Assembly: GCF_000527135.1 (NCBI RefSeq)
Contig: NZ_AZUP01000001.1
Location: 2,790,001 to 2,854,000 of the forward strand
Direction: 5' to 3'
Source of the DNA: Methyloversatilis discipulorum
GTDB taxonomy: Bacteria; Pseudomonadota; Gammaproteobacteria; Burkholderiales; Rhodocyclaceae
DNA: 64,000 bases
The stretch's first letter is position 1. Every line of letters begins with the position of its first letter. Both the position numbers and the translations under genes were made by a program. Under the pieces are notes generated by a model. It was not told the origin of the DNA. It did not search any database and saw only the letters and a program-made list of their open reading frames with translations. Positions 38,222 to 62,193 of this stretch are shown one piece after another.

Positions 38222-38232
38222 GCGCCGGCCGC

Positions 38233-39144
38233 TCAGCGCGCAGTCAGCTGCGGTTTCAGGCTGCGGCTCAGCGCCAGCTTGCGCACGATGGACGAGAAGG
38301 AACGCATCTGGCTTGCTTGCTGCCGGCTGCCGCGCTTCCACAGGATGCCCGGCGTGCGGATCGGTGTCGGACTTTCCAGCAGCACACGCTTCAGCCCTGA
38401 CTGCGGCGTCACCGCGTTCGCCGCGACGACCGAGCCGATCTGCGTGCGCGCCACGAGGCCCAGCATCGGAGCGATCGTGTTCATCTCCGCCACCACCTGA
38501 GGTTCGGCGCCGCAGGCGCGGAAGCACTCGTCGAGCATCACGCGGGTTGCGAACTCCTTGGGCAGCAGCACCAGCTGCTGCCGGTGCAGTTCGACCAGCC
38601 GTACCTTCTTGCGGTTGGCCAGCGGGTGATCATCAGCGACCACCAGCACCATTTCTTCGTTGTACAGCGGCTCGAACCACAGATCGTCCGGCGCCGCCGG
38701 GCGATAGGCGATGCCCAGGTCCAGTTCGCCCGACTTCACCTTGGCGCTGATGTCGTCGGCCGACAGTTCCTCGACGATGACGCGCGCGGTCGGATGACGG
38801 GTCAGGAAGATGGCGACGCACTCCGGTATGAAACCGAGATTGAAGGTGTGCGTGGCACCCACCCTTACCTCGCCGGCCAGGTCACCCGACGCCTCCTTCA
38901 GCGCGCCGATGCCCTGGTCGACCGCGCCCAGCGCCTGGCTGGCGTATTCGAGGAACAGTTCGCCGGCGTCGGTGAGCAGCACCTTCTTGCCGACGCGCTC
39001 GAACAGCGTCTTGTCCAGTTCCTCCTCCAGCTGGCGGATCTGGTGCGACAGCGTCGATTGCGTGACATGAACCCGCTCAGCCGCCCGGGTGAAATTGAGG
39101 CATTCGGCGAGGGTGACGAAGTAGCGCAGATGTCTCAACTCCAT
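38233..39144 (-). CDS. LysR-family transcriptional regulator of the catabolic operon
   Basis: 303 residues: an N-terminal winged helix-turn-helix (MELRHLRYFVTLAECLNFTR ... VTQSTLSHQIRQLEEEL) and a periplasmic-binding-like effector domain with VGATHTFNLGFIPECV and ELDLGIAYRP. It diverges from the dioxygenase gene over a 155-bp gap with two dyad sequences, the classic layout in which a LysR protein senses a pathway intermediate and activates the operon. I chose the ATG before ELRHLRYF; seven upstream codons overlap the putative operator. The effector is unknown. Confidence 0.9.
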   Translation of the reverse strand: MELRHLRYFVTLAECLNFTRAAERVHVTQSTLSHQIRQLEEELDKTLFERVGKKVLLTDAGELFLEYASQALGAVDQGIGALKEASGDLAGEVRVGATHTFNLGFIPECVAIFLTRHPTARVIVEELSADDISAKVKSGELDLGIAYRPAAPDDLWFEPLYNEEMVLVVADDHPLANRKKVRLVELHRQQLVLLPKEFATRVMLDECFRACGAEPQVVAEMNTIAPMLGLVARTQIGSVVAANAVTPQSGLKRVLLESPTPIRTPGILWKRGSRQQASQMRSFSSIVRKLALSRSLKPQLTAR

Positions 39145-39165
39145 GCTCAGGTACCTCGCACACAA

Positions 39166-39202
39166 CTATCGATGCCATAGATGGTAACGATGAAAATTCA
39201 TC
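39166..39202. promoter_or_regulatory. Putative LysR operator dyads in the regulator/dioxygenase intergenic region
   Basis: Two inverted repeats lie between the divergent genes. CTAT-N7-ATAG at 39166-39180 has the arm length and spacing of LysR sites such as ATAC-N7-GTAT. GATGAA-AA-TTCATC at 39189-39202 is a second dyad nearer the operon. Binding is inferred, not shown. Confidence 0.5.
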
Positions 39203-39299
39203 ATTTCTACATCTTGTAAGCGCTCTCTATCCTCCACTCAACAAAGCGTCACCGACCCGCAACCGAGGCGGATGACGCACAGGAACCGGAGGAGAAGAG

Positions 39300-40187
39300 A
39301 TGACCCACCCCGTGGGCGCGGACCTGACACAGGCCGTGCTGGCCCGACTGGACAGCTGCAGCGACCCGCGCTTCAAGGCAGTGATGAGTGCGCTGGTGGC
39401 GCACCTGCACGCCTTCATGCGCGAGGTCGACCTGACGCCCGAGGAGTGGATGGCCGGCATCGAATTCCTGACTGCGACCGGACGGGCGTGCGACGCGCAG
39501 CGTCAGGAGTTCATCCTGCTGTCGGACACCCTCGGCGCGTCCATGCTCGCGGTGGCACTGCAGCAGGCGCGTGCCATCGGCAGTGGCCGGGGCGCGACGG
39601 AGGCGACCGAAGCGACGGTAGAGGGCCCCTACTACCTGGACTGCGCACCCGATCGCCCCCTGGGCGCCGACATCGGCGAGGGCCTTGCAGGCGAGCCGAC
39701 CTTCTACGCCGGCCGCGTCACCGACACCGAGGGCAATCCGATCGCAGGTGCGCTGCTCGACGTCTGGTCCGGCGACGGCGAAGGGGTGTACGACATGGCG
39801 GCCGGTGGACGGCGCGGCATGCCGGCGCGCGGCCGCTTCCGCACCGACGACCAGGGCCGCTACTGGTTCTGGTCCATCCGTCCGGGCCACTACCCGGTGC
39901 CGATGGACGGCCCGGTCGGCCGCATGCTCGAACGCATGGGCAGCCATCCGAACCGCCCCGGCCACATCCACATGAAGGTGTCAGCGACCGGCTTCGTGCC
40001 GGTGACCACCCATCTCTTTGTCGCAGACAGCCTCTATCTCGATTCCGACGCCGTGTTTGGTGTGCGCGACAGCCTGATCGTCGATTTCGACGCGCACGGG
40101 CCGGGCGAAGCACCGGACGGCCGCCTGCTCGACCGGCCCTACTGGTCGGCCCACTACGACTTCCGCCTCGCCCCGCTCGCGGGGTAG
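39300..40187 (+). CDS. Intradiol ring-cleavage dioxygenase, hydroxyquinol 1,2-dioxygenase type
   Basis: 295 residues with an N-terminal helical dimerisation domain and a C-terminal beta-sandwich. The four ferric-iron ligands are visible at expected positions: Tyr164 (EGVYDM), Tyr198 (PGHYPVPMDGPV), His222 and His224 (RPGHIHMKV). The sequence is closest in style to hydroxyquinol/chlorocatechol 1,2-dioxygenases, which cleave between two ring hydroxyls to give muconates or maleylacetate. It is the first gene of the operon, after GGAGAAGAG. A maleylacetate reductase is absent. The exact catechol or triol substrate is unknown. Confidence 0.88.
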   Translation: MTHPVGADLTQAVLARLDSCSDPRFKAVMSALVAHLHAFMREVDLTPEEWMAGIEFLTATGRACDAQRQEFILLSDTLGASMLAVALQQARAIGSGRGATEATEATVEGPYYLDCAPDRPLGADIGEGLAGEPTFYAGRVTDTEGNPIAGALLDVWSGDGEGVYDMAAGGRRGMPARGRFRTDDQGRYWFWSIRPGHYPVPMDGPVGRMLERMGSHPNRPGHIHMKVSATGFVPVTTHLFVADSLYLDSDAVFGVRDSLIVDFDAHGPGEAPDGRLLDRPYWSAHYDFRLAPLAG

Positions 40188-40228
40188 GCGTCCGCCGCGC
40201 TTCGGTGCGGCCTCACGAGGACAGAACA

Positions 40229-41029
40229 ATGAAGATAGGCAAGGAAGTGATTCCGAGAACGGCAATCTCGACCTCGGACGAGCACTCCATCACCGTGCGC
40301 GGTGCCGATCTGTGCGCGGACCTGATCGGCCGCATCGGTTTCACCGAGTATTTCCATCTGCTGGTGACCGGCCGCCGCGCCACACCGGCAGCGACCGCCA
40401 TCATCGACGCGACGCTGGTCGCCATCGCCGAGCATGGGCTGGTGCCCAGCGTGCAGGCCAGCCGGATGACGCTGGCCGCGGCACCCGATGCGCTGCAGGG
40501 CGCGGTAGCGGCCGGCATCCTGGGTTGCGGCTCGGTCATCCTCGGCGCGTCGGAAACAGCCGGTCGGCTGTTCCATGAAATCGAGCAGCACGCAGCCGGT
40601 GGTGACATCGACGTCGCGGCGCGCGAGGTGGTGCAGGAATGGCGCGCGGCAAAGAATGCGATTCCGGGTTACGGACATCCGCAGCACAAGGCACGCGACC
40701 CGCGCGTCGATGCACTGTTCGCAGTGGCGCGTGAGCAGGCCATCGACCTGCGCTACGTGGCGATCGCCGAAGCGGTCGAGCGGGCGATTCCAGATGTCAT
40801 CGGCAAAGACCTGAAGCTCAACGTGTCGGCCGCCATTCCGGCGCTGCTGCTGGGCGTGGGCTTTCCGCTGGACGCGCTGAAGGGCGTGCCGATACTGGCG
40901 CGCACCGCCGGGCTGATCGCCCACCTGACCGAAGAACTGCAGCGCTCGATCGGCTTCGCGCTGTCCTACCAGGCGACGCGCGAAGCGCAGTACGACGGCG
41001 AACCGGCACGCGACGGAGCAGCGGAATGA
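40229..41029 (+). CDS. Citryl-CoA-lyase-like member of the citrate synthase superfamily
   Basis: 266 residues, matching only the C-terminal citryl-CoA-lyase module of ATP citrate lyase rather than full citrate synthase. His69 (AIAEHGLVPS) and His150 (GYGHPQHKARDPR) correspond to two catalytic histidines. The third residue, the Asp in NVD, is Ser200 here (LKLNVSAAIP). If my hand alignment is right, the chemistry may differ from normal citryl-CoA cleavage. It overlaps the CaiB CoA-transferase by 4 bp, suggesting transferase-lyase coupling on a citrate- or malate-like CoA ester. Confidence 0.8.
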   Translation: MKIGKEVIPRTAISTSDEHSITVRGADLCADLIGRIGFTEYFHLLVTGRRATPAATAIIDATLVAIAEHGLVPSVQASRMTLAAAPDALQGAVAAGILGCGSVILGASETAGRLFHEIEQHAAGGDIDVAAREVVQEWRAAKNAIPGYGHPQHKARDPRVDALFAVAREQAIDLRYVAIAEAVERAIPDVIGKDLKLNVSAAIPALLLGVGFPLDALKGVPILARTAGLIAHLTEELQRSIGFALSYQATREAQYDGEPARDGAAE

Positions 41030-42192
41030 GCGGCGTGCTGTCCGGCGTGCGCGTGATCGAACAGGGTACTTTCATCACCGGCCCCGCAGCCGGGATGATT
41101 CTGGGCGATCTGGGCGCGGACGTGATCAAGGTCGAACAGCCGGAATCGGGTGACCCCTTCCGCGCCTTTAAGGGCGGCCTCTACAGCCCGCACTTCCAGA
41201 CCTACAACCGCAACAAACGCAGCATTGCGCTGAATCCGAAGAACGCCGACGACCTTGCGGTATTCGACGATCTCATCCGCAGCGCCGACGTGTACATCCA
41301 GAACTTCCGTCCGGGTGCCGCCGAGCGTCTGGGCGCCGGCGAAGCCCGACTGCGGGCACTGAACCCGCGACTGATCTATTGCGCCATCAGTGGCTTCGGG
41401 CAGACCGGCCCGGCTGCACAACGGCCGAGTTATGACACGGTGGCCCAGGCTGCAAGCGGATATCTGAAGCTGCTGGTGAACCCGGCGGATCCGCGCGTCG
41501 TGGGGCCGGCCGTCGCCGACGCGATGACCGGCTACTACGCCGCCTTCGGCATCCTCGGCGCGCTGTACGAGCGCGCACGCACCGGCATCGGCCGCACGGT
41601 CGAGGTGTCGATGCTGGAGGCGATGTGCCACTTCAATCTCGACGCCTTCACCCACCTGCTGTCTGAAGGCGAGGTGATGGGGCCGTTCAGCCGCCCCAGC
41701 GTCTCCCAGTCCTACGTCATGCGCTGCAGTGACGGCAAATGGCTGGCGCTGCACATGTCTTCGCCGGAGAAGTTCTGGCAGGGGTTGGCCGACGCCATGG
41801 GCCGGCCGGACATCTTCAGCGACCCGCGCTTCTGCTCGCGCGAGGCGCGCATCAATCACTACGAAGAACTGATCGCGCTGATGCGCGAAATCTTCGCGAC
41901 CGACACGCGTGCCGCCTGGTGCATACGGCTGGCCGAGCGCGACGTGCCGCACGCGCCGATGTACGACACCGACGAAGTGCTGACCGACCCGCAGGTGCGC
42001 CATCTCGAACTCGAGGTCAGCGCGCGCCATCCGCAGATGGGCCCGTTCCGGACCATCCGCTTCCCGGTGTCCTTCGACGGCCGTCGCGCCTTCGACGTGC
42101 AGCCGCCGCCGCTGCTCGACGAGCACGCCGACGACATCCGCAAGAGCTTGCAGCAGAACGACGACGGCCCGTCGCACAAGGGCAGCGACTGA
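41026..42192 (+). CDS. CaiB/BaiF family (type III) CoA-transferase
   Basis: 388 residues, standard length. Signatures: GVRVIEQGTFITGPAAGMIL, LGADVIKVEQPESGDPFR, the catalytic Asp165 in VGPAVADAMTGYYAAFG, and SVSQSYVMRCSDGKWLALHM. The family moves CoA between carboxylic acids through an aspartyl-CoA intermediate. It is coupled by an ATGA overlap to the citryl-CoA-lyase-like gene, so its acceptor is probably the acid that enzyme then cleaves. Substrates unknown. Confidence 0.9.
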   Translation: MSGVLSGVRVIEQGTFITGPAAGMILGDLGADVIKVEQPESGDPFRAFKGGLYSPHFQTYNRNKRSIALNPKNADDLAVFDDLIRSADVYIQNFRPGAAERLGAGEARLRALNPRLIYCAISGFGQTGPAAQRPSYDTVAQAASGYLKLLVNPADPRVVGPAVADAMTGYYAAFGILGALYERARTGIGRTVEVSMLEAMCHFNLDAFTHLLSEGEVMGPFSRPSVSQSYVMRCSDGKWLALHMSSPEKFWQGLADAMGRPDIFSDPRFCSREARINHYEELIALMREIFATDTRAAWCIRLAERDVPHAPMYDTDEVLTDPQVRHLELEVSARHPQMGPFRTIRFPVSFDGRRAFDVQPPPLLDEHADDIRKSLQQNDDGPSHKGSD

Positions 42193-42258
42193 AGGAAGGC
42201 AGACACACGACGCAAGGCCCCGCTCGTCCGGAGCCGCACATGCCAAGAAGGAGGAGAC

Positions 42259-43890
42259 ATGAAAAAGAAACACGCACCGCAGCCGGGCAGGAACAGGCGC
42301 TCATGCCGCAAGGCGTTGCCGCTGGCCATCGCCGCCATGGCCGGACTGGGCGGCTCGGCGCCGGCCGTGGCGTTCGAGATCGAGTCCGGCAATCCGGACG
42401 TGAAGATGCGCTGGGACAACACGGTGAAGTACTCGAATGCCTGGCGCCTCGAAGACCGCTCGCGCACGCTGACCAGCGACATCAACCAGGACGACGGCAA
42501 CCGCAATTTCGGCCGCGGCCTGATTTCCAACCGTATCGACCTGCTGTCGGAATTCGACCTCAGCTACAAGGGCAGTTACGGCCTGCGGCTGAGCGGCGCC
42601 GGCTGGTACGACACGGTGTACCAGCGCTCGAACGACAACAATTCGCCGGCTACGATCAACCAGCTATCGCGCCCGTCGGACGAGTTCGTCGACGCGACAC
42701 GCGACCTGCACGGCGGCCGCGCCGAATGGCTGGATGCATTCGTCTATGCCAACGGCGAGCGCGGCAACGTCCGTCTCGGCCGCCACTCCATCCTGTACGG
42801 CGAGACGCTGTTCTTCGGCGCCAACGGCATTGCCGCTGCGCAATCGCCGACCGACATCGTGAAACTGCTGTCGGTACCGAACTCGCAGTTCAAGGAGATC
42901 ATCCTGCCGGTGAACCAGGTGTCCGGCCAGATCCAGCTGACCGACACGGTTTCGCTCGGCGCCTACTACCAGTTCGAATTCCGCAAGAACCGCATTCCGG
43001 GTGTCGGCAGTTACTTCTCCGGCGCCGACGTGCTGGGGTCGGGCACCGAGCGCTTCCTGTTTGCACCGGGCGTCGGTGTGCCGCGTGTCGAAGACGGCAA
43101 TGCGCCGGATTCCGGACAGGGCGGTGTGCAGCTGCGCTGGCGTCCGGAAGGCACGGACATCGAGTTCGGCTTCTACGCCGTGCGTTACCACGACAAGAAC
43201 TTCCAGGTGTATCTGCGCCCGGTCGCCGGCGACCTGCAGATGGTCTATCCGGAGGACGTGCGCGCCTATGGTGTGAGCTTCAGTACAGAGATCGCCGACT
43301 TCAATCTTGCAGGTGAGTTTTCAGTCCGCCGCAACACGCCGCTGGTCAGCGGGCCGGTGGTCGACATGAGCCCGACCGGTGTGGCCGACAACGACAGCAA
43401 TGCGCTCTATGCAATCGGCAATTCCGCACACGCCAACCTGTCGGCCATCTTCTTCCTGAACCGGTCGAAGTTCTGGGACAACGCCTCGCTGGTGGGCGAA
43501 ATCGCCTGGAACCGGCGTACCAGCATCACGAAGAACGCTGCCGAGCTGGACCCGAACACCTCGCGTGACGCCTGGGGTCTGCGCTTCGTGTTCGAACCGC
43601 AGTGGTTCCAGGCCGCGCCGGGCCTCGATCTGTCGATGCCCATCGGCCTTGGCTACAACCCGAAGGGCAATTCGTCCGTGGTGCAGCTGTTCAACGGCGG
43701 CGTCGAGCACGGCGGCGACGTGTCGATTGGCGTCAAGGGTGTCTATCAGCAGGTGTGGCGCGGCGGCATCAACTACACGCACTACATCGGCCGTGCCGGC
43801 AACGCACTGGGCACCGACGCCAACCTCACCTTCCGACAGAACTACGCGGACCGCGATTTCATCTCGGTTTCGCTGCAGCGCACCTTCTAA
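42259..43890 (+). CDS. DUF1302 outer-membrane protein
   Basis: 543 residues with a long signal region (KALPLAIAAMAGLGGSAPAVAF) and alternating beta strands ending in SVSLQRTF, an outer-membrane barrel end. The start of the mature part (FEIESGNPDVKMRWDNTVKY) and NRIDLLSEFDLSYKG are DUF1302-like. The family is found beside DUF1329 in gene clusters for breakdown of hydrophobic compounds; a role in uptake is suspected, not proven. AGGAGGAGA precedes the ATG. Confidence 0.88.
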   Translation: MKKKHAPQPGRNRRSCRKALPLAIAAMAGLGGSAPAVAFEIESGNPDVKMRWDNTVKYSNAWRLEDRSRTLTSDINQDDGNRNFGRGLISNRIDLLSEFDLSYKGSYGLRLSGAGWYDTVYQRSNDNNSPATINQLSRPSDEFVDATRDLHGGRAEWLDAFVYANGERGNVRLGRHSILYGETLFFGANGIAAAQSPTDIVKLLSVPNSQFKEIILPVNQVSGQIQLTDTVSLGAYYQFEFRKNRIPGVGSYFSGADVLGSGTERFLFAPGVGVPRVEDGNAPDSGQGGVQLRWRPEGTDIEFGFYAVRYHDKNFQVYLRPVAGDLQMVYPEDVRAYGVSFSTEIADFNLAGEFSVRRNTPLVSGPVVDMSPTGVADNDSNALYAIGNSAHANLSAIFFLNRSKFWDNASLVGEIAWNRRTSITKNAAELDPNTSRDAWGLRFVFEPQWFQAAPGLDLSMPIGLGYNPKGNSSVVQLFNGGVEHGGDVSIGVKGVYQQVWRGGINYTHYIGRAGNALGTDANLTFRQNYADRDFISVSLQRTF

Positions 43891-43908
43891 GAACACCGGA
43901 GACGGCAC

Positions 43909-45255
43909 ATGATTTCGATGAAAACCCTCGCGGCCGCGCTGGTGGCCGCATCGCTGGCGAGTACGGGCTGGGCGGCCGTGACCGCCGATGAAGCCGCAAA
44001 GCTCAAGTCGGAACTGACACCGCTGGGCGGAGAGAAGGCGGGCAACAAGGACGGCAGCATTCCTGCGTGGAACGGTGGCTACACCAAGGTTCCGGCCGGC
44101 TACAAGAGCGGCCAGCCGCGGCCCGATCCGTTCGCCGACGAGAAGCCGCTGTACACCGTGACGGCGGCCAATATGGCGCAGTACGCGGACAAGCTGGACG
44201 AAGGGCAGCAATACCTGCTCAAGAAGTACCCGGACTACAAGATCAACGTCTACCCCACGCACCGGAGCGCGGCCGCGCCGCAATGGGTGTATGACGAAAC
44301 GTTCAAGAACGCCACGCGCGCAAAGATGGATGGCGATTCGGTCATCGATGCATACGGCGGCATTCCTTTCCCGATTCCGAAAACCGGCGCGGAGCTGCTG
44401 TGGAATCACTCCTTGCGCGTGCGTTCGCAGGGCTATCGCCAGGCCTTCCGTACCTACACCATCGATACGAACGGCACTTCTTCGCTGGCAAGCGGCGCGG
44501 TGAACGAGGTGACGATTCCGTACTACACGAAAGGTCTGTCCCCGGAGCACATCAAGAACAACGGTGGCGCGTACTACCAGAACCTCCAGTCGGTCGAATC
44601 GCCTTCGATCCGCGCAGGGGAAATGCTGATGTACTACGACCAGCTGGACAACACGCGACCGGCCTGGCAGTACCTCGTCGGTCAGCGCCGTGTCCGTCGC
44701 GCGCCGACCATCTGCTGCGACACACCGAATTTCGTGGCCTCCGGTGTCGATTTCTTCGATCAGGTGTTCGTCTGGTTCGGCCCTGCGACCAACTATGACT
44801 GGAAGATCGCCGGCAAGAAGGAACTGATCATTCCCTACAACAACAACCGGCTCGTTGCATCGAAGCCGGAGGACGCGATGAGCAAGCACTTCGTGAATCC
44901 CGAGCTCGTCCGTTGGGAGGTTCACCGCGTCTGGGTGCTCGAAGGGACCGTCCGTCCCGGCAAGCGTGACGTGCGTCCGAAGCGCCGGCTCTACCTCGAC
45001 GAGGACACGTACATCGCCGCGATCGGCAACACCTGGGATGCACAGGGAACCCTGTGGCACACCAGCTATGGTTTCCCGTGGATGCAGTACGAGATACCGG
45101 CTGTCGGTCAGGAAACCTACACGACGCTGGACCTTATCAAGGGCACGTACTCCTACACGACGATGAGCGATCAGCACAACCAGATCCAGGTCATCGATCC
45201 ACTTCCTCCCAGCTACTACACGCCGGAATCGCTGTCTCGCCGCGGAGTGCGGTGA
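43909..45255 (+). CDS. DUF1329 exported lipoprotein-carrier-like protein
   Basis: 448 residues with a signal peptide (TLAAALVAASLASTGWA). Family features: LTPLGGEKAGNKDGSIPAW near the N-terminus, YLVGQRRVRRAP in the middle and TWDAQGTLWHTSYGF later. DUF1329 is thought to have a LolB/outer-membrane-lipid-carrier-like fold and pairs with DUF1302 (18 bp upstream). By eye, third codon positions from here through the next gene are less GC-biased than those of the neighbours. Confidence 0.88.
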   Translation: MISMKTLAAALVAASLASTGWAAVTADEAAKLKSELTPLGGEKAGNKDGSIPAWNGGYTKVPAGYKSGQPRPDPFADEKPLYTVTAANMAQYADKLDEGQQYLLKKYPDYKINVYPTHRSAAAPQWVYDETFKNATRAKMDGDSVIDAYGGIPFPIPKTGAELLWNHSLRVRSQGYRQAFRTYTIDTNGTSSLASGAVNEVTIPYYTKGLSPEHIKNNGGAYYQNLQSVESPSIRAGEMLMYYDQLDNTRPAWQYLVGQRRVRRAPTICCDTPNFVASGVDFFDQVFVWFGPATNYDWKIAGKKELIIPYNNNRLVASKPEDAMSKHFVNPELVRWEVHRVWVLEGTVRPGKRDVRPKRRLYLDEDTYIAAIGNTWDAQGTLWHTSYGFPWMQYEIPAVGQETYTTLDLIKGTYSYTTMSDQHNQIQVIDPLPPSYYTPESLSRRGVR

Positions 45256-45359
45256 GGCGAGCCGGCCATGCCCGCGACCGGTCGGCCCGTCTGCAGGAGG
45301 GTTACGGTCGCCGGGCGGCTGTGGAACAGGACAACAAGTGACGACCCGGGGAGTGCAAC

Positions 45360-47048: not shown

Positions 47049-47091
47049 GCACCGGTTCCGCACGGCACGCGTTCAGTGCGCGGGAGAGCAC

Positions 47092-47487
47092 ATGAAGGTT
47101 CTGGACATTCTGGTCAGACACAACATGACCCTTGACCGGTTGGCGGCGGCCGTCGACTTCTACTGCGGTCTGCTTGCCGCGCCGGTCGAACTGGATCTGG
47201 ATCTGCTGGACGGCCGGCTGCGCGTCGTGCAGGTCGGAAAGATGGTCCTGGTGGGCTATCACCCGCAGATCGCGTCCGCGATCTCAATGGCAGGCGCCGT
47301 CTATCTGGTCCGGGATATCGAATCCTTCCGGACAGCCCTGAGCGCACAGGGGTGCGAAACACTCGAAGCGCTGACGGACGTGGTCACCGGCAAGGTGATG
47401 GTGATGAAGCATCCGGACGGCCTGGTGGTCGAGTATGTGGAGCATCTCGATGCCGTGCGGACCGCCGGTTCAGGAGAGCATCGATGA
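47092..47487 (+). CDS. VOC/glyoxalase-fold small protein
   Basis: 131 residues. One beta-alpha-beta-beta-beta module can be seen (DRLAAAVDFYCGLLAAPVEL ... VMVMKHPDGLVVEYVEHLD), resembling a VOC module, but the first metal-ligand His is not clear, so it may be a non-catalytic or binding member. It overlaps the YCF48 gene by 4 bp. The function is not recognised. Confidence 0.65.
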   Translation: MKVLDILVRHNMTLDRLAAAVDFYCGLLAAPVELDLDLLDGRLRVVQVGKMVLVGYHPQIASAISMAGAVYLVRDIESFRTALSAQGCETLEALTDVVTGKVMVMKHPDGLVVEYVEHLDAVRTAGSGEHR

Positions 47488-51013: not shown

Positions 51014-51037
51014 GACCGGAACATTGAGGAGACCACG

Positions 51038-52123: not shown

Positions 52124-52159
52124 CCGTACCAACATCGCCCCACCGAGGAGGAGCACACC

Positions 52160-52759
52160 ATGAGTCTTGAAAACTGGACCCCGAGCGAAATCGATCTTGA
52201 CCGCGCACGCGAAGTCGCCAGCGAGCGGCGTGCCGCAAACAAGGTGAAGATGCTGCATCACCACGCCTTCCGCTGCCGCAGCGCGGAGGAGACGCGCGCC
52301 TTCTACGAGGGCATCCTCGGCTTTCCGCTGGTGGCGGCCTGCATCGAGCCCATCGATCCGCTGACCAACGAGCCCAAACCCTACATGCACCTGTACTTCG
52401 AACTGGCCGATGGCAGCGCACTGGCCTTCTTCGACTACCCGGCACACTTCAGGCCGGAAGACTTTCCCGAAGTCGACCAGTTCGGCCACCACATCGCGAT
52501 GGAAGTGAGCGGCGGCCACGAAACCATAGACGGCTACAAGAAGAAGCTCCAGGACGCAGGCATCGACGTGCTGGAAATCGACCATGGCTACTGCCGTTCG
52601 ATCTACTTCTACGATCCGAACGGCATGCGGGTCGAATTCGCCACCAACGTGACGGTGACCGAACGCTTCTTCGCCGACAAGTATCAGTCGGTCGATGCCG
52701 ACATGGCGCAGTGGAAGAAGATCCGCGCACAGCATTTCGGCGAGGCCGCGAAGGCCTGA
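52160..52759 (+). CDS. VOC-superfamily (extradiol-dioxygenase-like) protein
   Basis: 199 residues with a VOC fold: KMLHHHAFRCRSAEETRAFY, a second His in FGHHIAMEVSGG, and Glu in GMRVEFAT, the 2-His-1-carboxylate pattern of type I extradiol dioxygenases and glyoxalases. It is shorter than classical two-domain extradiol enzymes. It could open a ring, isomerise an intermediate or act as a dioxygenase for a product of the Rieske enzymes. GGAGGAG precedes the ATG. The reaction is unassigned. Confidence 0.75.
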   Translation: MSLENWTPSEIDLDRAREVASERRAANKVKMLHHHAFRCRSAEETRAFYEGILGFPLVAACIEPIDPLTNEPKPYMHLYFELADGSALAFFDYPAHFRPEDFPEVDQFGHHIAMEVSGGHETIDGYKKKLQDAGIDVLEIDHGYCRSIYFYDPNGMRVEFATNVTVTERFFADKYQSVDADMAQWKKIRAQHFGEAAKA

Positions 52760-52778
52760 AGCGCCGACGGTGGATGAC

Positions 52779-53660
52779 ATGACGCAACACACCCCACGCC
52801 CGGCCTTCCTGCGCCACGACTGCGTGTCCGAGGACGGATGCCGGATCGCCTGGTGGTCGGCCGGCAATCCGGACGGATCTCCGATCGTACTGCTGCACGG
52901 CTTCGCGCTCGACCACTCGGTGTGGGCGCCGCTCTATGCGCAGCCGGCACTGCTCGAACGCTGCCACCTGGTCATGCCCGATCTACGCGGTCACGGTGCA
53001 TCGGACCGCATGCAAACAGCGGCCCACTACACCTCAGGCGACGCCTGGGCAGCCGACCTGGACTCCGTCATCCGCGCCTCGGGCGTGGTGCAGCCGAGCG
53101 TGGTCGCCTGGTCCTTCGGTGGTCGCAGTGTGCTCGACTATGCGCGCCGCTACGGCACCGACGGGCTGCACGGCATCCAGTTCGTCGCGGCTGCCAGTCT
53201 CGCGCATTTCGCCTCGGCAGGACCGGATCACGTCGTTCTCGAGGCGCTGTGCTCGGAGGACGAAACCACTGTTGCCGACGCGACCGCGCGCTTCATCGGC
53301 GACGTGCTGGGCGTGCCGCGCGACAGCGCCGACTTCGCCGCGCTGACCGCGGTCGCGGCGCGCTGTCCGGTCGAGCACCGGCGCTGGATGCGCCAGCGCG
53401 GGCTGGATTACGACGCACTGATCGGCGGCCTCGACCTACCGCTGATGTGGGTGAACGGCGAGCACGACAACATCGTGCTGGCCTCGCGTGCCGAAGTGTT
53501 CCGCGAACTGCTGCCCGACAGCCGCACATCGATCCACGCCGGTGCACGCCATGCACCCTTCCGCGACGACCCGGCGCGCTTCACTCGCGAACTGCTGGAT
53601 TTCATCACCGATCCGCCGCCCTGCCGGCGCACCGCTCGCGCGGTCGCGCGGCAAGGCTGA
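52779..53660 (+). CDS. Alpha/beta hydrolase
   Basis: 293 residues. The fold is clear: oxyanion motif LLHGFALDHSVW, nucleophile elbow AWSFGG with Ser112 (the first Gly of GxSxG is Ala), acid Asp230 (WVNGEHDN) and base His258 (GARHAPF). Relatives include ring-fission-product hydrolases and enol-lactone hydrolases, so it could hydrolyse the ring-cleavage product or an ester. It lies 20 bp after the VOC gene. Confidence 0.84.
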   Translation: MTQHTPRPAFLRHDCVSEDGCRIAWWSAGNPDGSPIVLLHGFALDHSVWAPLYAQPALLERCHLVMPDLRGHGASDRMQTAAHYTSGDAWAADLDSVIRASGVVQPSVVAWSFGGRSVLDYARRYGTDGLHGIQFVAAASLAHFASAGPDHVVLEALCSEDETTVADATARFIGDVLGVPRDSADFAALTAVAARCPVEHRRWMRQRGLDYDALIGGLDLPLMWVNGEHDNIVLASRAEVFRELLPDSRTSIHAGARHAPFRDDPARFTRELLDFITDPPPCRRTARAVARQG

Positions 53661-53692
53661 GCAAGACCATACAGAACATCAGAGGAGACACC

Positions 53693-54745
53693 ATGTACCC
53701 GCTACCCGAAGGCTGCTTCGCCCCCCGCAACCAGTGGTATATCGCCGCCTGGGCGGACGAGATCAGGCGCGAGCCGATGGAACGCTGGATCCTGAACGAG
53801 CCGATTGCCTTCTACCGCACCGAAGACGGTCGCGCGGTCGCACTCGAAGGCCGCTGCCCGCACCGCCACTTCCCGCTCGGCAAGAGCCGGCTGATCGGCG
53901 ACAACATCGAATGCATGTACCACGGCATCACCTTCTCGCCGAAGGGTGACTGCGTGCGCATCCCGTCGCAGGGCATGGTGCCGGCCAGCTGCAAGGTGAA
54001 GGCCTATCCGCTGGTCGAGCGCTGGAAGTGGCTGTGGATCTGGATGGGCGATCCGGCGCTGGCCGACGAATCGCTGATTCCGGATCACCACGAGATCGGT
54101 CTGACCGACCCGGCCTTCACGGTCGAGTCCGGCACCTATCACGCAGTGCCCGGCCGCTACATGCTGATGCACGACAACCTGTTCGACCTCACCCACCTCG
54201 GCTTCCTGCATCAGACCAGCATCGGTGCCGGCGACTACAGCGTGGTCGACGAGCAGCGGGACAACGGCGACAACTGGATCAGCAGCCAGCGCGAGTTCCC
54301 GAATATCCAGTGCCCGCCGCTCTATGCGCAGGTGTTCGGTTACGAGGGCAAGGTCGACCGCGCTTTCGGCATGAAACTTTTCCTGCCTTCGCTGCATGCC
54401 GGCTACGACTTCCTGTGCAAGTCCAGGACCGACAGCGACGACCCGGGTGCCGTGCTTGGCAAGGTGCGCGTCTATCACGCGATCACGCCCGCCACGAAGA
54501 ACACCGCCCACTACTTCTTCGCCTACGGCCGCACGTTCAAGCAGGACGACGACGCTTTCGGCAAGGCCATGCTGGCCAGCTTCAATGCGGTGATCGAGGA
54601 GGACATGCTGGCCACCCGCGAAATCGAGTCCATGCTCACCACGCTGGGCACGACGCCGCCGGAGGTGCTGCTGAAGGCCGATGCCACCTGCGTGCGCGGA
54701 CGGCGGCTGTTTGAAAGTCTCATCCGCAAGGAACAGGCGGTCTGA
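53693..54745 (+). CDS. Rieske non-heme iron oxygenase, VanA type (second copy)
   Basis: 350 residues. Rieske ligands: Cys55-His57 (RCPHRHF) and Cys74-His77 (CMYHGITF). Mononuclear iron ligands in LMHDNLFDLTHLGFLH: Asp165, His168, His173. It differs clearly from the first Rieske protein and is more VanA-like (LPEGCFAPRNQWYIAAWADE), so the two probably act on different substrates rather than being a recent duplication. It overlaps the reductase by 1 bp (TGATG). Confidence 0.9.
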   Translation: MYPLPEGCFAPRNQWYIAAWADEIRREPMERWILNEPIAFYRTEDGRAVALEGRCPHRHFPLGKSRLIGDNIECMYHGITFSPKGDCVRIPSQGMVPASCKVKAYPLVERWKWLWIWMGDPALADESLIPDHHEIGLTDPAFTVESGTYHAVPGRYMLMHDNLFDLTHLGFLHQTSIGAGDYSVVDEQRDNGDNWISSQREFPNIQCPPLYAQVFGYEGKVDRAFGMKLFLPSLHAGYDFLCKSRTDSDDPGAVLGKVRVYHAITPATKNTAHYFFAYGRTFKQDDDAFGKAMLASFNAVIEEDMLATREIESMLTTLGTTPPEVLLKADATCVRGRRLFESLIRKEQAV

Positions 54746-55710
54746 TGGCTACGGTCCAGACGCTGCAGGTGCGCGTCGCGCGTCGCGAAGCCGAGGCCGA
54801 GGGCATCGCCCGCTTCGAGCTGGTCAGTGCGGACGGCGCACCACTGCCCGCCTTCACCGCGGGTTCCCATGTCGATGTGCTGCTGGGCGACGGTTTGACC
54901 CGGCAGTACTCGCTGTGCGGCCATCCGGCCGATCGCAGCCGCTACCAGCTGGGCGTGCTGCTTGACCCGGCGTCGCGCGGTGGCTCGCGTGCGATGCACG
55001 CGCTGGCAGAGGGCGCCACGCTTGCGATCAGCGCGCCGCGCAACCACTTCGAACTGGCGGCCGATGCGCGCCACCATCTGCTGCTGGCCGGCGGCATCGG
55101 CGTCACGCCGCTGCTGTGCATGGCGGAGCAGCTGGCGGCCGACGGCGCCGATTTCACGCTGCACTACTGCACCCGCTCGCTCGATCGCACCGCCTTCCGC
55201 GCGCGGATCGCGTCCGCCGGCTGGGCGGCGCGTACGCAGATTCACGTCGACGACGGCGACGCATCCCAGTCCTTCGACATGAAGGGCGTGCTGGCGACCC
55301 CCGAGCCGGGCACGCATCTCTACGTATGCGGCCCCAGGGGTTTCATGGACGCTGTGCTGGCGACCGCGCGCGCGCAGGGCTGGCCGGAAGACCGCATCCA
55401 CTACGAGTTCTTCGGGGCGACCGTGGTGACGACGGACGCCGACGCCGACTTCGACGTGAAGCTGGCCCGTTCCGGCCGTGTCATTCCGGTGCGGCGCGAA
55501 CAGACGGTGGCGCAGGCGCTTGCCGCGGCTGGCGTCGATCTGCCGGTGTCCTGCGAGCAGGGCGTGTGCGGCACCTGCCTGACACGCGTCATTGACGGCA
55601 CGCCTGACCACCGCGACATGTACATGACCCCGGCGGAACAGACGAAGAACGACCAGTTCACGCCCTGCTGCTCGCGCTCGCTGAGCCCGCTGCTGGTGAT
55701 CGATCTCTGA
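54745..55710 (+). CDS. VanB/phthalate-type oxygenase reductase (FMN, NADH, 2Fe-2S)
   Basis: 321 residues: a flavin-binding RQYSLCG near 53-59, the nucleotide motif LLAGGIGVTPLLCMAE, CGPRGFMDAV, and a C-terminal plant-type ferredoxin with Cys270, Cys275, Cys278 and Cys308 (SCEQGVCGTC ... TPCCSRS). It moves electrons from NADH through FMN to the Rieske cluster of the oxygenase. As the sole reductase in the operon it may serve both Rieske proteins. Its stop is directly followed by the CoA-ligase ATG. Confidence 0.93.
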   Translation: MATVQTLQVRVARREAEAEGIARFELVSADGAPLPAFTAGSHVDVLLGDGLTRQYSLCGHPADRSRYQLGVLLDPASRGGSRAMHALAEGATLAISAPRNHFELAADARHHLLLAGGIGVTPLLCMAEQLAADGADFTLHYCTRSLDRTAFRARIASAGWAARTQIHVDDGDASQSFDMKGVLATPEPGTHLYVCGPRGFMDAVLATARAQGWPEDRIHYEFFGATVVTTDADADFDVKLARSGRVIPVRREQTVAQALAAAGVDLPVSCEQGVCGTCLTRVIDGTPDHRDMYMTPAEQTKNDQFTPCCSRSLSPLLVIDL

Positions 55711-57390
55711 ATGCCGGACACGATGATTCCAGACGAACTGCCCGCAGAACCCGCGACCGAGCTGACGCCGGCGCAGGTGTTTGCCCTCTTCCCGCAGCAC
55801 GACGACACCCTGCCCTCGCTCCTCGCCTCGCGCGCCGCCGTCATGCCGGATGCCGAAGCCGTGCTTTTCCAGACGCGCAGCTGGACTTACCGCCAGGTGA
55901 GCGAAGCGGTGGAGACGCTGGCCGCCGCGCTGAACGCACACGGCATCCGCGCTGGCGACCTGGTCGCGCACGTGGCGCCGAACAGCGACGTGGCCGTCCT
56001 GCTCTTCCTGGCGCTGGCGCGCATCGGCGCCGTGTTCGTACCGCTCAATCCGGCGCTGACCGACGACGAGCTGCACTACCAACTGCAGCACTCGCAGGCC
56101 GTCGCCGCCTATGCGCCACAGTCGCTGTGCGCGCGCGTCGAGCAGATCGCCACCCGGTGTGCCCGCCCGGCACGCGTGGCACCGCTGGAGCCCTGCGGAC
56201 TCGACGCGGCCAGCGCCGCCGCCGCGCTGGCATGCATTGCCGGCGAGTCGCCGGCCGACGCACCGCCGCTGCCTATGCCCTCGCCAGATGATCCGGCGGT
56301 GGTCATCTACACATCCGGCACCACCGGCTTCCCGAAGGGCGTGGTGCACAGTCAGCGCACGGTGGTGTGGTCGGCCGAGGTTTTTGTCGGCCGGCTGAGG
56401 CTGCAGCCGCGCGAGCGCATGCTCACGGTGTTCCCGCTGTTCCACGTCAACGCGCTGTTCTATTCCTTCGCCGGTGCGCTGGCCTGCGGCGGCACCTTCA
56501 TCACCGCGGCGAAATTCAGCGCGTCGACCTTCTGGCAGACCGCGGTCGACACCGGTGCCACCCAGCTCAACATTCTGGCGGCGCTGGGCTCCATCCTCGG
56601 CCTGCGGCCGCGTTCCGAATTCAATCCGGCGCACCGCATCCGCAAGATCTACGGCGGTCCGATCAGCGTCGACATGTTCCGGCTGTTCCAGCAGGAATTC
56701 GGCGTGCCGCTGCTGATCGAGGGCTACGGCATGTCGGAGATTCCGTCCACCTGCAGCAACCCCTACGAAGGGCCGCACAAGCCCGGAAGCATCGGCCGCG
56801 CCGGTGTGCATCCGCGCTTCGACGGCGCGTTTGCACAGCTGCGCGTGGTCGATGATGACGGCCGCGACGTCGAGGTGGGCGAAGCCGGTGAATTGCTGGT
56901 GCAGACACCGACCCTGTTCGTTGCCTACCTGAACGATGCGCAGCAGACCGCCGAGGCGTTCCGCGACGGCTGGTTCGCCACCGGTGATCTGGTGCGCATG
57001 GACGCCGACGGCTATTTCTATTTCGTTGCGCGCAAGAAGGACATCATCCGCAAGCGCGGCGAAAACATATCCGGCGCCGAGCTCGACGTCTTACTGGGCC
57101 GACATCCGGAGCTGGCGGAGGCGGCGACCATCGCGGTGCCGTCCGAACTGGGCGAGGACGACATCCTGGCAGTGCTCGTTGCGCGGGACGGCGCCACGCC
57201 GACGCACGAGGCGGTGATTGAGTGGTGCCACGCCCACATGGCGGCGATCAAGGTGCCGCGCTACCTGGTGTTTGCCGATGCATTGCCGAAGACACCGACG
57301 CAGCGCGTGGCCAAGCATCTGCTGAAGAAGGACGCGGCGCTGATCGCCCGTGCCCGCGACATGGAAGCCGCCCAGGCGGCGACGCGCTGA
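55711..57390 (+). CDS. AMP-forming acyl-CoA ligase
   Basis: 559 residues of an ANL-superfamily enzyme. P-loop [17 protein letters not shown]5-like [12 protein letters not shown]7-A8 region [20 protein letters not shown] and [11 protein letters not shown]; and the C-terminal catalytic Lys in [14 protein letters not shown]. It would activate a carboxylic acid (aromatic, crotonobetaine-like or fatty). Relatives near this sequence include CaiC-like ligases. It overlaps leuC by 1 bp. Confidence 0.89.
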
Positions 57391-58796
57391 TGCAGCCGCG
57401 CACTCTGTTCGACAAACTCTGGACGCGCCACGTCGTCGCCATGCGCGGCGAAAACACGGCGCTGCTCTACGTCGATCGTCATCTGGTCTATGAGGTGACC
57501 AGCCCGCAGGCCTTCGAGGGTCTGCGGCTTGCCGGTCGCACGCCCTGGCGTCGCGACACGGTGTTGGCCACGGCCGACCACAACGTGCCGACCACTTCGC
57601 ACGCCGGCGAGATCCGCGACCCGCTGTCGCGCGCGCAGGTCGAGCAGCTCGGGCACAACTGTCGTGAGTTCGGTATCACGCTGTTCCCGCTCGGCGACCG
57701 CCGGCAGGGCATCATCCACGTGATCGGGCCGGAACAGGGCGCCACGCTGCCCGGCATGACGGTGGTAGCCGGCGATTCGCACACCAGCACGCACGGCGCC
57801 TTCGCCGCGCTGGCCTTCGGCGTCGGCACATCGGAGGTCGAGCACGTGCTGGCTACGCAGTGCCTGCCGGTCGACCGCATGAAGACGCTGTACATCGATG
57901 TCAGCGGCACGCTGCCACGTGGCGTGACCGCAAAGGACCTGGTGCTCGACCTGATCCGATGCCTCGGCGCTGCGGGCGGCGCCGGCTGTGCCATCGAGTT
58001 CGGCGGCGACACCGTGCGCGGGCTGTCGATGGAAGGCCGGATGACCCTGTGCAATATGGCGATCGAGGCCGGTGCGCGCGTCGCGCTGGTGGCGGTCGAC
58101 GCGGTGACGCTGGATTACCTCGAAGGCCGGCCGCTGGCACCTCGCGGCGCCGAGTGGGACGCCGCCTGCACATACTGGCGCACGCTGGTCAGCGACGATG
58201 GCGCAGTGTTCGACGCGCGGCTGCAGATCGACGCCAGCACGCTGCGCCCGATGGTGAGCTGGGGTACGTCGCCAGCGCAGACGGTGCCGGCCGACGGCCG
58301 CGTGCCGGACCCGCGCGACGAGGCCGACCCGGTGCGCCGCGCGCAGATGCAGCGCGCACTTGACTACATGGCGCTCGAACCGGGCACCGCCGTCACTGAT
58401 ATCCGGCCCGACCGCGTATTCATCGGTTCCTGCACCAATGCGCGCATCGAGGATCTGCGCGCGGCTGCAGCCATCGCGCGCGGTGGCCGCGTCGCAGCCT
58501 CGGTCAGTCAGGCGCTGGTGGTGCCCGGCTCCGGTCTGGTCAAGGCACAGGCGGAAGCAGAAGGGCTTGATCGCGTCTTCATCGAGGCCGGCTTCGAGTG
58601 GCGCGAGCCTGGCTGTTCAATGTGTCTGGGCATGAATGACGACAGCCTTCAGCCCGGCGAGCGCTGCGCCTCGACCTCAAACCGCAACTTCGAAGGTCGC
58701 CAGGGCGCCGGCGGCCGCACCCATCTTGTCAGCCCGGCAATGGCTGCCGCCGCGGCACTGGCCGGCCACTTCGTCGATATCGGCGCGGAGGCCTGA
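57390..58796 (+). CDS. Aconitase-superfamily large subunit (LeuC-like), catabolic context
   Basis: 468 residues, full LeuC length. The three 4Fe-4S cysteines are in [13 protein letters not shown] and [11 protein letters not shown], and [20 protein letters not shown] closes the domain. LeuC/LeuD homologs hydrate or isomerise hydroxy-di/tricarboxylates (isopropylmalate, citraconate, maleate, dimethylmaleate, homocitrate). No leuA or leuB is nearby, so leucine synthesis is unlikely here. Start at ATG 57390 overlapping the ligase stop. Confidence 0.88.
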
Positions 58797-58797
58797 C

Positions 58798-59442
58798 ATG
58801 CAGCCTTTCACCGCACTGACCTCGCACGTCGCGCCGCTGGACCGCGCCGACGTCGATACCGACGCGTTGATTCCGAAGCAGTTCATGAAGTCGATCGCGC
58901 GCACTGGCTTCGGCGACAACCTTTTCGACGCCTGGCGTTACCGTGACCCGGGCTATCCCGGCAAGCCGCAATCGGCGCGCGAACCCGAACCGGATTTCGT
59001 GCTCAATCGGCCGTCCTGCAGAGGCGCGCAGATCCTGCTCGCACGCGACAACTTCGGCTGCGGCTCCAGCCGCGAACACGCGCTGTGGGCACTTGCCGAC
59101 TATGGCTTCCGCGTCATCGTGGCGCCGAGCTTCGCCGACATCTTCTTCAACAACTGCTTCAAGAACGGCGTGCTGCCCGTCGTGCTGCCGACCCCACAGA
59201 TCGACCGCCTGTTCGCCGACGTCGGCGACGGACGCGAGGACTACCGGTTGACGGTCGATCTGGCAGAACAGACGCTGCGTTTGCCAGATGGCGAACGGCT
59301 GGGCTTCGAGGTGGACGCCTATCGAAAACACTGTCTGCTGCATGGTCTGGACGACATCGCATTGACGCTGCAGCAGGCGGACGACATCCGCGCCTACGAG
59401 CAGCGGCGGTGCACGCTCGAACCATGGCTTTTTCCGGCATGA
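58798..59442 (+). CDS. Aconitase-superfamily small subunit (LeuD-like)
   Basis: 214 residues. It has the LeuD N-terminus ([20 protein letters not shown]) with the swivelling-domain motif [15 protein letters not shown] and [15 protein letters not shown]. It pairs with the large subunit one base upstream to form an active hydro-lyase. Its stop overlaps the ATG of the next gene. Substrate as for the large subunit, unknown. Confidence 0.88.
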
Positions 59443-60302
59443 GCGCCCGCCGCACGCGGCTGCGCAACGCGCTCGCCGGGACGCAATGCCTGAACTGCCC
59501 GTCGGTATTCGATCCGATGTCGGCACGACTGGCCGAGGCTGCCGGCTTCGGTATCGGCATCCTCGGCGGCTCGGCGGCAGCGCTGACCCTGCTCGGTCTG
59601 CCCGACCTGAACCTGATCACGCTGACCGAACTGAGCGGGCTGACGCGCCGCATCACCGACACCAGCGACGTCGCGTTGATCGTCGATGCCGACGGCGGCT
59701 ACGGTAACGCGCTCAATGTGATGCGCACGGTGGGCGAGCTGGAGGCAGCAGGCGCCGCTGGCCTGTCGATCGAGGACAGCTGGCTGCCGCAGGCCTACGG
59801 CCGGCACACCGACCCGCTGATACCGATAGACGAGGCGGCCGACAAGCTGCGCGCCGCGGTTTCCGCGCGGCGCGATCCGTCCTTCGTGTTATTCGCGCGC
59901 ACCTCGGCGCGCGCCTGCAGATCGGACGACGAACTGATCGAGCGCCTAACGCGTTACGCCGACACCGGTGTCGACGCGCTGTGCATCGTCGGCTCCGACA
60001 ATGATGAACGGCTGGCGAAGATATCCGCGCACATCCGCCTGCCATGGTTGCTGATCGGCTACGCAGGCTCCGATCCGGCAAGGCTCGACACGCTGGCGAG
60101 CCACGGCGCACGCCTGCATCTCGACGGACATCACGGCATGCTCGCCGCGCTGGAGGCGATGCAGACCGCCTACCGCTCCCTGCCCGGCGCTGCGCCGGCG
60201 ACGCCGCCCCTGTCGACCGACGCATTGGTGCCGCACCTGAGCCGCGTGGCGCGATATCGAGAGGCAGAGCGTTACCTGAAGCCGGCAACCGCCAGCGGCT
60301 GA
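59439..60302 (+). CDS. PEP mutase/ICL-superfamily protein, oxaloacetate decarboxylase-like
   Basis: 287 residues. The metal-binding core is [17 protein letters not shown] with Glu112-Asp113 (SIEDSWLP). The lyase loop with the catalytic Cys (K-[KR]-C-G-H in isocitrate and methylisocitrate lyases) is absent; instead the loop reads [10 protein letters not shown], and His231 ([11 protein letters not shown]) matches the conserved His of PA4872-type oxaloacetate decarboxylases. I therefore favour decarboxylation of oxaloacetate or a 3-substituted analogue over lyase activity. This is the last gene of the operon. Confidence 0.82.
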
Positions 60303-60369
60303 ACACCCGACGTCCTCGTGCCGGCCACGCCCAAGTGCCCCACTGACCCGGGCGCGGCCCGGTGTTTGA

Positions 60370-60396
60370 TGGAGCGCCGCGTGCGCTCCATTTTTT
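60370..60396 (+). terminator. Intrinsic terminator closing the catabolic operon
   Basis: Stem TGGAGCGC/GCGCTCCA (7-bp GC core 60371-60377 and 60383-60389) followed by six T at 60391-60396, placed after the decarboxylase-like gene and 1 bp before the convergent ABC gene's stop. Confidence 0.9.
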
Positions 60397-60397
60397 C

Positions 60398-62149: not shown

Positions 62150-62193
62150 GCAGAATCATCCTTTTTGTTGTATATTCGCGCCCCTACCCAAGT

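Follow-up and report, generated by a model that had tools for sequence, protein, structure and literature searches.

The window analysed here is a 64,000-nucleotide stretch of the Methyloversatilis discipulorum genome (RefSeq assembly GCF_000527135.1, contig NZ_AZUP01000001.1, positions 2,790,001 to 2,854,000), which is available as a single contig of 4.3 Mb. It carries an operon of 18 plus-strand genes (39300-60302) that begins with a gene for an intradiol dioxygenase (IDO) and ends with a gene of the PEP-mutase family (PEPM). The genes are spaced by -19 to +104 bp with six overlaps, a LysR-type regulator gene is transcribed divergently, and an intrinsic terminator closes the run, just as a sequence-only reading of this DNA had described (Table 1). 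Scans that detect simple consensus sites only found no sigma-70-like sites in 37000-56999 and 55000-64000. Terminator-like sites on the plus strand within coding sequence (46838, 47708 and 59120) stay within chance level, and on both strands one scan gave 6 sites compared with 9.5 in shuffles, the other 5 compared with 3.3. These scans gave no convincing internal signal. The view that the operon forms one LysR-controlled unit is supported.

Table 1. Features of the operon and its control region, with positions in the window; genes were assigned by Pfam and NCBIfam profiles.
Feature	Position	Strand	Evidence
LysR-type regulator, divergent	38233..39144	-	PF00126+PF03466
Probable LysR operator, ATCGATGNNATMGATGNTANC..TGAAAATTCATCATTT	39168..39206	+	19-nt consensus; 39-nt pattern
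IDO, intradiol dioxygenase, hydroxyquinol 1,2-dioxygenase type	39300..40187	+	PF00775+PF04444; best solved relative 1tmx, E 4e-73
CCL, citrate-synthase-fold "citryl-CoA lyase", Ser for catalytic Asp	40229..41029	+	NF004868 over cut-off
CaiB, family III CoA-transferase	41026..42192	+	PF02515, E 1e-108; solved relatives formyl-CoA and succinate-HMG CoA-transferases
AmeA-like outer-membrane protein (DUF1302)	42259..43890	+	PF06980
AmeB-like periplasmic protein (DUF1329)	43909..45255	+	PF07044
FMO, FAD aromatic hydroxylase	45360..47048	+	PF01494; solved relatives flavin monooxygenases
VOC1, small VOC-fold protein	47092..47487	+	PF00903, weak
AmeC-like YCF48/BNR periplasmic protein	47484..48587	+	PF14870
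AmeD-like MMPL/RND transporter	48584..51013	+	PF03176
RO1, Rieske oxygenase, probable O-demethylase	51038..52123	+	Rieske+VanA_C; DdmC, E 3e-68
VOC2, VOC-fold protein, possible extradiol enzyme	52160..52759	+	PF00903; solved relative 9u42 "glyoxalase"
ABH, alpha/beta hydrolase	52779..53660	+	PF00561
RO2, Rieske oxygenase, probable O-demethylase	53693..54745	+	Rieske+VanA_C; DdmC, E 1e-47
RED, Rieske oxygenase reductase	54745..55710	+	PF00175+PF00111
ACS, AMP-forming acyl-CoA ligase	55711..57390	+	PF00501
LeuC-type hydratase large subunit	57390..58796	+	TIGR00170 over cut-off
LeuD-type hydratase small subunit	58798..59442	+	TIGR00171 over cut-off
PEPM, PA4872-type oxaloacetate decarboxylase-like	59424..60302	+	PF13714; 3b8i, E 7e-55; 89% identical in locus L101
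Intrinsic terminator	60368..60392	+	10-pair stem, then TTTTTCT

The new point is the core of this operon: IDO, a protein annotated as citryl-CoA lyase (CCL) and a CaiB-family CoA-transferase lie together behind a conserved operator, and the arrangement recurs in related bacteria. Specifically, genome contigs were scanned with IDO and the best 80 of 81 relatives were kept, corresponding to 79 loci that are biased to close relatives, as the patterns were derived from the query. IDO reaches at least 58% identity in 60 of the 79 and is joined by CCL in 59 of these and by both CCL and CaiB in 58; LysR is also present in 56 of the 58. The exceptions are one locus without CCL (L053) and one whose contig ends shortly past CCL (L041). 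The regulator, 49-97% identical, adjoins the core in most relatives, and the order is LysR/IDO-CCL-CaiB in 26 loci, LysR/CaiB-IDO-CCL in 22 and different again in 7, while four loci combine the first order with a reductase gene across LysR. Such varied orders speak for selection on the IDO-CCL-CaiB set. Of 399 genomes drawn from the bacterial order, 31 have a CCL homologue with E <= 1e-40 and four, M. discipulorum included, have one of at least 68% identity, so that the distribution of the core is patchy rather than general.

IDO itself has the intradiol N- and C-terminal domains and, aligned to 1tmx, the Tyr/Tyr/His/His set of iron ligands. A tree built from 89 IDO sequences separates the 60 core-labelled ones and L053 from nine reductase-linked ones by a branch supported at 100/100, the core label being partly circular (the 58% identity limit and a neighbour were used), the tree carrying a long-branch warning, and five lower-identity IDOs in tandem with a core (L029, L044, L050, L055 and L059) being labelled non-core. 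The dioxygenase thus belongs to a clade of its own and does not group with those linked to maleylacetate reductase. Nine positions differ between the core and the other clades, some of them presumably near the iron site, judging by 1tmx. Hydrogenophaga and relatives (L029, L032, L035, L038, L041, L044, L050 and L052) have a second, diverged IDO unit beside the core, 46-48% identical to the window IDO and in several cases accompanied by genes that look by eye like those for a TRAP transporter, YciI, Dabb or a nitroreductase; these tandem units suggest two related ring substrates. Further afield, in Acidimicrobiia and a Ferrithrix-labelled metagenome-assembled genome (MAG; L074, L077 and L080), an IDO of 45-48%, a VOC2-like protein of 40-41% and a RED-like protein of 36-38% identity are combined in an actinobacterial gene neighbourhood that is conserved.

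The operator, too, is conserved. A 19-nt consensus, ATCGATGNNATCGATNNTA, is found 5' of lysR with at most two mismatches in 48 of 60 regions and at most four in 58 of 60, compared with 0.03% and about 3%, respectively, of 6,000 dinucleotide shuffles, a contrast that is inflated, as the consensus was read from the tested sequences and one genome (G025, the same as G207) is in the set twice. The longer 39-nt pattern has a single occurrence in the M. discipulorum genome at up to three mismatches, where the regulon apparently is one operon. Polaromonas sp. P2-4 (L014) has two copies of the operator, one at 8674 ahead of CaiB-IDO-CCL and one at 14524 ahead of the genes of the LeuC/LeuD-type hydratase (LeuCD). 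In genome G194, a LysR of core type faces a run made up of CCL-CaiB, a gene that looks TctC-like by eye, and LeuC (60% identical), with no IDO on the fetched 20 kb. Since the operator precedes both units in Polaromonas and LeuC lies in the CCL-CaiB run of G194, LeuCD would belong to the same pathway as the core. One locus (L040) also has the operator 5' of an alpha/beta hydrolase gene and a YciI-like gene, both named by eye. An in-frame TGA interrupts the core-adjacent leuC of Polaromonas sp. P2-4 (L014, L086 and L100), in whose assembly another leuC and the maleylacetate reductase homologue are likewise in pieces; sequencing errors are a possible cause.

The catalytic residues of CCL set it apart from its annotation. 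Its predicted model (mean pLDDT 90.8) has citryl-CoA lyase 6hxp as best Foldseek match (E 7e-14, TM 0.81/0.84), and alignment with 6hxp and with the citrate synthase of the same genome indicates that it has retained the His of GYGH and the Arg of DPR, probable ligands of citrate or another anion. By contrast, VILGA replaces HGGA and NVS replaces NVD, and the citrate synthase, serving as control, has HGGANE, GHR and NVD all present. In citryl-CoA lyase and in citrate synthase, the Asp of NVD and the His of HGGA are two of the three residues needed for catalysis. Among the 88 proteins aligned (the protein search scored at least 8,000 homologues), NVS and VILGA are found in all 59 core CCL proteins, and the 29 more distant homologues all have Ser or Thr for the Asp and lack the His; a loss specific to the IDO-linked clade is thereby ruled out, as the wider family shares it. 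Because the Asp and one His are missing, the annotation is doubtful: CCL, as judged from its aligned residues, is probably not a citryl-CoA lyase and thus misnamed. The titles of the PDB entries for the ATP-citrate lyase variants D541A and D1026A give citryl-CoA or substrates as bound, and we take D541/D1026 to be the same Asp as that of NVD.

The earlier observation that a maleylacetate reductase is lacking extends from the operon to the whole genome. The query was a 355-aa protein of L060, which we take to be maleylacetate reductase, NCBIfam having no matching model; in 11 of the best 25 of 354 plasmid records, a relative at 64-77% identity carries that annotation. It gave no match in the 4.3-Mb M. 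discipulorum genome at E <= 1e-3, nor at E <= 1e-20. At the latter threshold, 43 genomes were searched, including the 36 behind 37 chosen core loci and two controls. A reductase of at least 54% identity is present in 23 of the 36 core genomes, in G361, in G207 and in both controls; the remaining 13 core genomes have none or matches of 30-37%. These 13 include G001, G002 and G017, and the four operon-bearing genomes gave no match at this threshold. As for the other enzymes of the 3-oxoadipate route, none of the four thiolases of M. discipulorum exceeds the pcaF cut-off, which 0 of 14 control genomes pass either, and one PcaI-family CoA-transferase, from a family broader than PcaI, lies over the family cut-off and far from the operon.

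The operon as a whole is found in four genomes, two of them MAGs: M. discipulorum, G001, G002 and G017. The three further carriers were recognized as loci L002, L003 and L020, the only ones with the transport genes on the fetched DNA, and extension revealed the remaining operon. Gene content varies among the four carriers. In a Methyloversatilis MAG, IDO is 96% and most operon proteins are 84-100% identical and RO1 is absent; M. universalis EHg5 has neither RO1 nor PEPM, and a gammaproteobacterial MAG (L003/L097) is without FMO, VOC1 and PEPM.

At the level of protein families, the earlier assignments hold up. CaiB, LeuC and LeuD have strong profile matches, "citryl-CoA-lyase-like" is correct for CCL as a family name, and "oxaloacetate-decarboxylase-like" is correct for PEPM. 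All elements of the proposed gene set are likewise present, but four transport genes had been counted without being recognized as an efflux cassette. On the basis of their families, the DUF1302, DUF1329, YCF48/BNR and RND genes (42259-45255 and 47484-51013) are a transport cassette, not pathway enzymes. They follow the AmeABCD order, with FMO and VOC1 interposed in the window; in the gammaproteobacterial MAG, where these two genes are absent, the cassette is uninterrupted. AmeABCD of Castellaniella defragrans is reported to be an efflux system linked to monoterpene metabolism (PMC6394551), and an Ame-type cassette would point to a hydrophobic substrate. O-demethylation is likely, as dicamba O-demethylase is the best solved relative of both Rieske oxygenases. 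The substrate is probably a greasy methoxylated aromatic compound, and the formaldehyde released by O-demethylation could be used by a methylotroph. The Pfam and NCBIfam assignments include no thiolase or crotonase among the operon genes. By gene content, the operon combines the cassette with an upper pathway formed by the two DdmC-like Rieske proteins, RED, FMO, VOC1, VOC2, ABH and ACS, and with a lower module of IDO, CCL, CaiB, LeuCD and, in some carriers, PEPM. ACS may, judging from a ligase of 46% identity that adjoins a CCL homologue in L144, be part of the lower pathway.

Outside the operon, a PAS-GAF-GGDEF protein (36779-38221) ends immediately before lysR, and an ABC exporter (60398-62149, minus strand) converges on the terminator, with tRNA-Leu(GAG) behind it (62194-62278); M. 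universalis (L096), too, has behind its operon a protein that by eye resembles an ABC exporter.

A role of the operon LeuCD in leucine synthesis is unlikely, since it is the other copy in the genome that has a leuB-like gene nearby. LeuC is present in all 36 genomes tested and lies near the core in 4 of 58 cases, one within the fetched flanks (<=10 kb) and three further out, in the operon carriers. Two other LeuCD loci were not counted as support: that of G022 (L099) resembles a leucine operon, by neighbour sizes only, and that of Caldimonas (L098) has no tie to a core. The latter is a stand-alone divergent LysR-LeuCD unit (8685-11823) whose LeuC shares about 75% identity with that of the operon, and it may be an independent unit for the hydration of maleate or citraconate. 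An archaeal LeuC reportedly has maleate hydratase activity (PMC8307300). The closest solved relative of PEPM is PA4872 (3b8i), with 2,3-dimethylmalate lyase (3fa3) much further away (E 6e-19), and in the alignment PEPM lacks the Cys of the CGH motif. This motif we take to mark C-C lyases; on both counts, a C-C lyase role for PEPM was rejected.

CCL and CaiB also occur in other settings. Plasmid records with a CCL homologue number 92, of which those of Aminobacter sp. MSH1, Paraburkholderia largidicola and Neorhizobium galegae were opened. On pUSP2 of Aminobacter sp. MSH1 (L166:3242-12876), one run comprises a TRAP transporter, a CocE-type hydrolase, a uroporphyrinogen-decarboxylase-family protein, CCL (60% identical), a CaiB-family gene (51%) and an extradiol dioxygenase, without the core LysR. 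The uroporphyrinogen-decarboxylase-family protein is 79% identical to a core neighbour in L051, and its family (f18) is found in six core loci, which indicates that it travels with the module in two bacterial classes. pUSP2 is a conjugative plasmid, and its host was isolated from soil that had been treated with dichlobenil. In Paraburkholderia largidicola, LysR (55%), an operator, CCL, CaiB and an MFS transporter lie together with no dioxygenase on 17 kb, and Neorhizobium galegae has CCL and a CaiB that is fragmented in tblastn. These settings make CCL-CaiB the smallest unit, with a substrate that need not derive from intradiol cleavage; a fixed tie of CaiB-CCL to such cleavage is weakened by the plasmid records. 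In addition, CaiB-CCL adjoins a 61% identical maleylacetate reductase homologue in G361, and in G216 (L145:5287-10549) one run joins 3-oxoacid CoA-transferase genes (TIGR02429 and TIGR02428), a biotin carboxylase, a pyruvate-carboxylase-B-like protein and, downstream of the CoA-transferase genes, a CCL homologue, possibly another CoA pathway with the same lyase-fold family. Both settings fit 3-oxo-acid substrates.

The available data are compatible with a model in which IDO, CaiB, CCL, LeuCD and PEPM act in this order as a lower pathway without a reductase; drawn from gene content and alignments, the model as a whole has a probability of roughly one in three. Specifically, a poorly soluble methoxylated aromatic would be O-demethylated and hydroxylated to a hydroxyquinol-type ring, which IDO would open to a maleylacetate-type unsaturated beta-keto diacid. 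CaiB would convert this acid to its CoA thioester, a beta-ketoacyl-CoA that CCL would split to give acetyl-CoA and a C4 acid of maleate type, thus filling the place that PcaIJ and PcaF have in the 3-oxoadipate pathway. Hydration of this C4 product by LeuCD would then yield an acid of (R)-malate type, an unlinked dehydrogenase would oxidize it, and PEPM would decarboxylate the oxaloacetate-type product to pyruvate, so that the NADH cost of maleylacetate reduction would be avoided. Modules with either a reductase (G361) or LeuC (G194, Polaromonas) are accommodated, because each of the two would deal with the double bond. A broader and tentative proposal is that the IDO-linked "citryl-CoA lyases" represent a new enzyme class of citrate-synthase fold that, lacking the canonical His/Asp pair, splits the CoA thioesters formed after ring cleavage, for example maleylacetyl-CoA; with CaiB they would form a reductase-free lower pathway that is scattered among Burkholderiales and extends to Alphaproteobacteria, and a large family annotated as citryl-CoA lyase would be misnamed.

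Several observations speak against this model. LeuCD is distant from most cores, PEPM and RO1 are each absent from two of the four operons, and a D-malate dehydrogenase search in the M. discipulorum genome gave four matches, none over the cut-off. A reductase is present in most core genomes, as counted above, four core loci (L032, L042, L055 and L059) carry its gene themselves, and its lack is not special to the operon, as 10 genomes without the operon also have no clear one. The Asp substitution is shared by relatives without IDO linkage, and handling of an acetyl-CoA enolate by a CCL that lacks the canonical His and Asp would be hard to explain. Given the nine differing positions in IDO, the ring substrate may not be hydroxyquinol. 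Finally, the extradiol setting of Aminobacter and the transporter-only setting of Paraburkholderia do not suggest maleylacetate, so that the CCL-CaiB substrate may be a simpler acid; they fit the model less well and favour a hydroxy acid of the kind that LeuCD would supply in the order put forward by the sequence-only reading.

In that earlier order, which we consider doubtful, hydration of an unsaturated acid with two or three carboxyl groups, by LeuCD or a housekeeping LeuC, would give a product resembling malate, citramalate or citrate, CaiB would add CoA, CCL would release acetyl-CoA and an oxo acid, and PEPM would decarboxylate oxaloacetate or an analogue. Its placing of the CoA-transferase, lyase-like and LeuCD genes in one pathway is supported by the Polaromonas operators and G194, but hydration as the opening step and splitting by a citryl-CoA lyase are doubtful. 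Every gene family would fit, LeuCD lies within the regulon, PEPM would directly succeed a lyase that makes oxaloacetate, and CCL has kept the probable citrate-binding motifs GYGH and DPR. A common hydroxy-acid intermediate would also suit CCL-CaiB next to a transporter alone, to an extradiol dioxygenase, or to LeuC on a dioxygenase-free 20 kb (G194), and the occurrence of LeuC in every genome tested would allow a housekeeping copy to serve. Against this stand two of the three catalytic residues, absent in 88 of 88 aligned proteins, the ATP-citrate lyase variants, in which presumably the same Asp is lost and whose entries name citryl-CoA or substrates as bound, and the small number of cores with LeuC nearby.

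If the loss of acid/base residues across the family is given more weight, CCL might break no C-C bond at all and instead be a CoA-ester hydrolase, isomerase or hydratase, with the skeleton cleaved elsewhere. Some relatives do adjoin CoA ligases and not ring-cleavage genes, but the fold and the probable anion-binding residues are kept and the profile assignments show no thiolase or crotonase in the operon, which makes this alternative unlikely. Still less probable is a replacement of PcaIJ and PcaF by CaiB and CCL on saturated 3-oxoadipate, with the reductase elsewhere and LeuCD in a different branch. The reductase beside CaiB-CCL in G361, the CoA-transferase genes upstream of the CCL homologue in G216 and the clear reductase orthologues of 23 core genomes would agree with it; against it, no reductase homologue was found in the four operon genomes, M. 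discipulorum included, and LeuCD shares the operator in Polaromonas. A pairing of LeuCD as hydratase with PEPM as lyase, comparable to dimethylmaleate hydratase with 2,3-dimethylmalate lyase, is very improbable: both proteins are in the right superfamilies and 3fa3 is among the relatives of PEPM, but PA4872 is far nearer (E 7e-55 versus 6e-19) and the CGH Cys of the C-C lyases is absent.

Annotation of ring-cleavage pathways usually stops at the known reductase or thiolase. Should the reductase-free model hold, many soil and freshwater Burkholderiales own a second, NADH-free finish to intradiol cleavage that yields acetyl-CoA and malate-level products. The residue comparison suggests that citrate metabolism should not be inferred from the label "citryl-CoA lyase" in proteobacterial genomes before the catalytic residues are checked, and the module lends itself to direct tests through its operator and a regulon that apparently consists of a single operon. 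A literature search for the gene set, the intermediates and the parts found no such pathway, in agreement with the earlier statement that no described pathway with this exact set was known to the reader; for some queries the coverage was of the best-ranked matches, and subscription journals were few, so absence is unproven. The naringenin (fde) operon of Herbaspirillum, a possible counterpart, found no support in the text consulted.

Comparison with known systems helps to place the operon. The hydroxyquinol/3-oxoadipate pathway comprises hydroxyquinol 1,2-dioxygenase, maleylacetate reductase, PcaIJ and PcaF. The operon shares with it the flavin hydroxylase, the hydroxyquinol-type IDO and, as proposed here, the steps of CoA transfer and CoA-ester cleavage; it differs in that it lacks maleylacetate reductase, has a CaiB-family protein for PcaIJ and a citrate-synthase fold for the thiolase, and adds LeuCD. 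In the hydrolytic branch of gentisate degradation, a specific LeuCD-type maleate hydratase acts on maleate from maleylpyruvate hydrolysis; hydration of maleate by LeuCD would be shared, whereas here the maleate supposedly comes from a CoA ester. CCL resembles the citryl-CoA lyase of Hydrogenobacter thermophilus (6hxp) in fold, length and the GYGH and DPR motifs, but has Ser or Thr for the catalytic Asp, lacks the His of the HGGA motif and is linked to ring-cleavage dioxygenases. Dicamba O-demethylase (DdmC) is matched by both operon Rieske oxygenases in sequence. With AmeABCD of Castellaniella defragrans (PMC6394551), the operon has DUF1302, DUF1329, COG4447/YCF48-like and RND genes in common, but the window cassette is split by FMO and VOC1 and its cargo is presumably aromatic. 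The pUSP2 run of Aminobacter sp. MSH1, in turn, has the same succession of CCL and a CaiB-family gene, and there an extradiol dioxygenase, a TRAP transporter and the uroporphyrinogen-decarboxylase-family protein take the place of IDO and the Rieske enzymes, with no core LysR.

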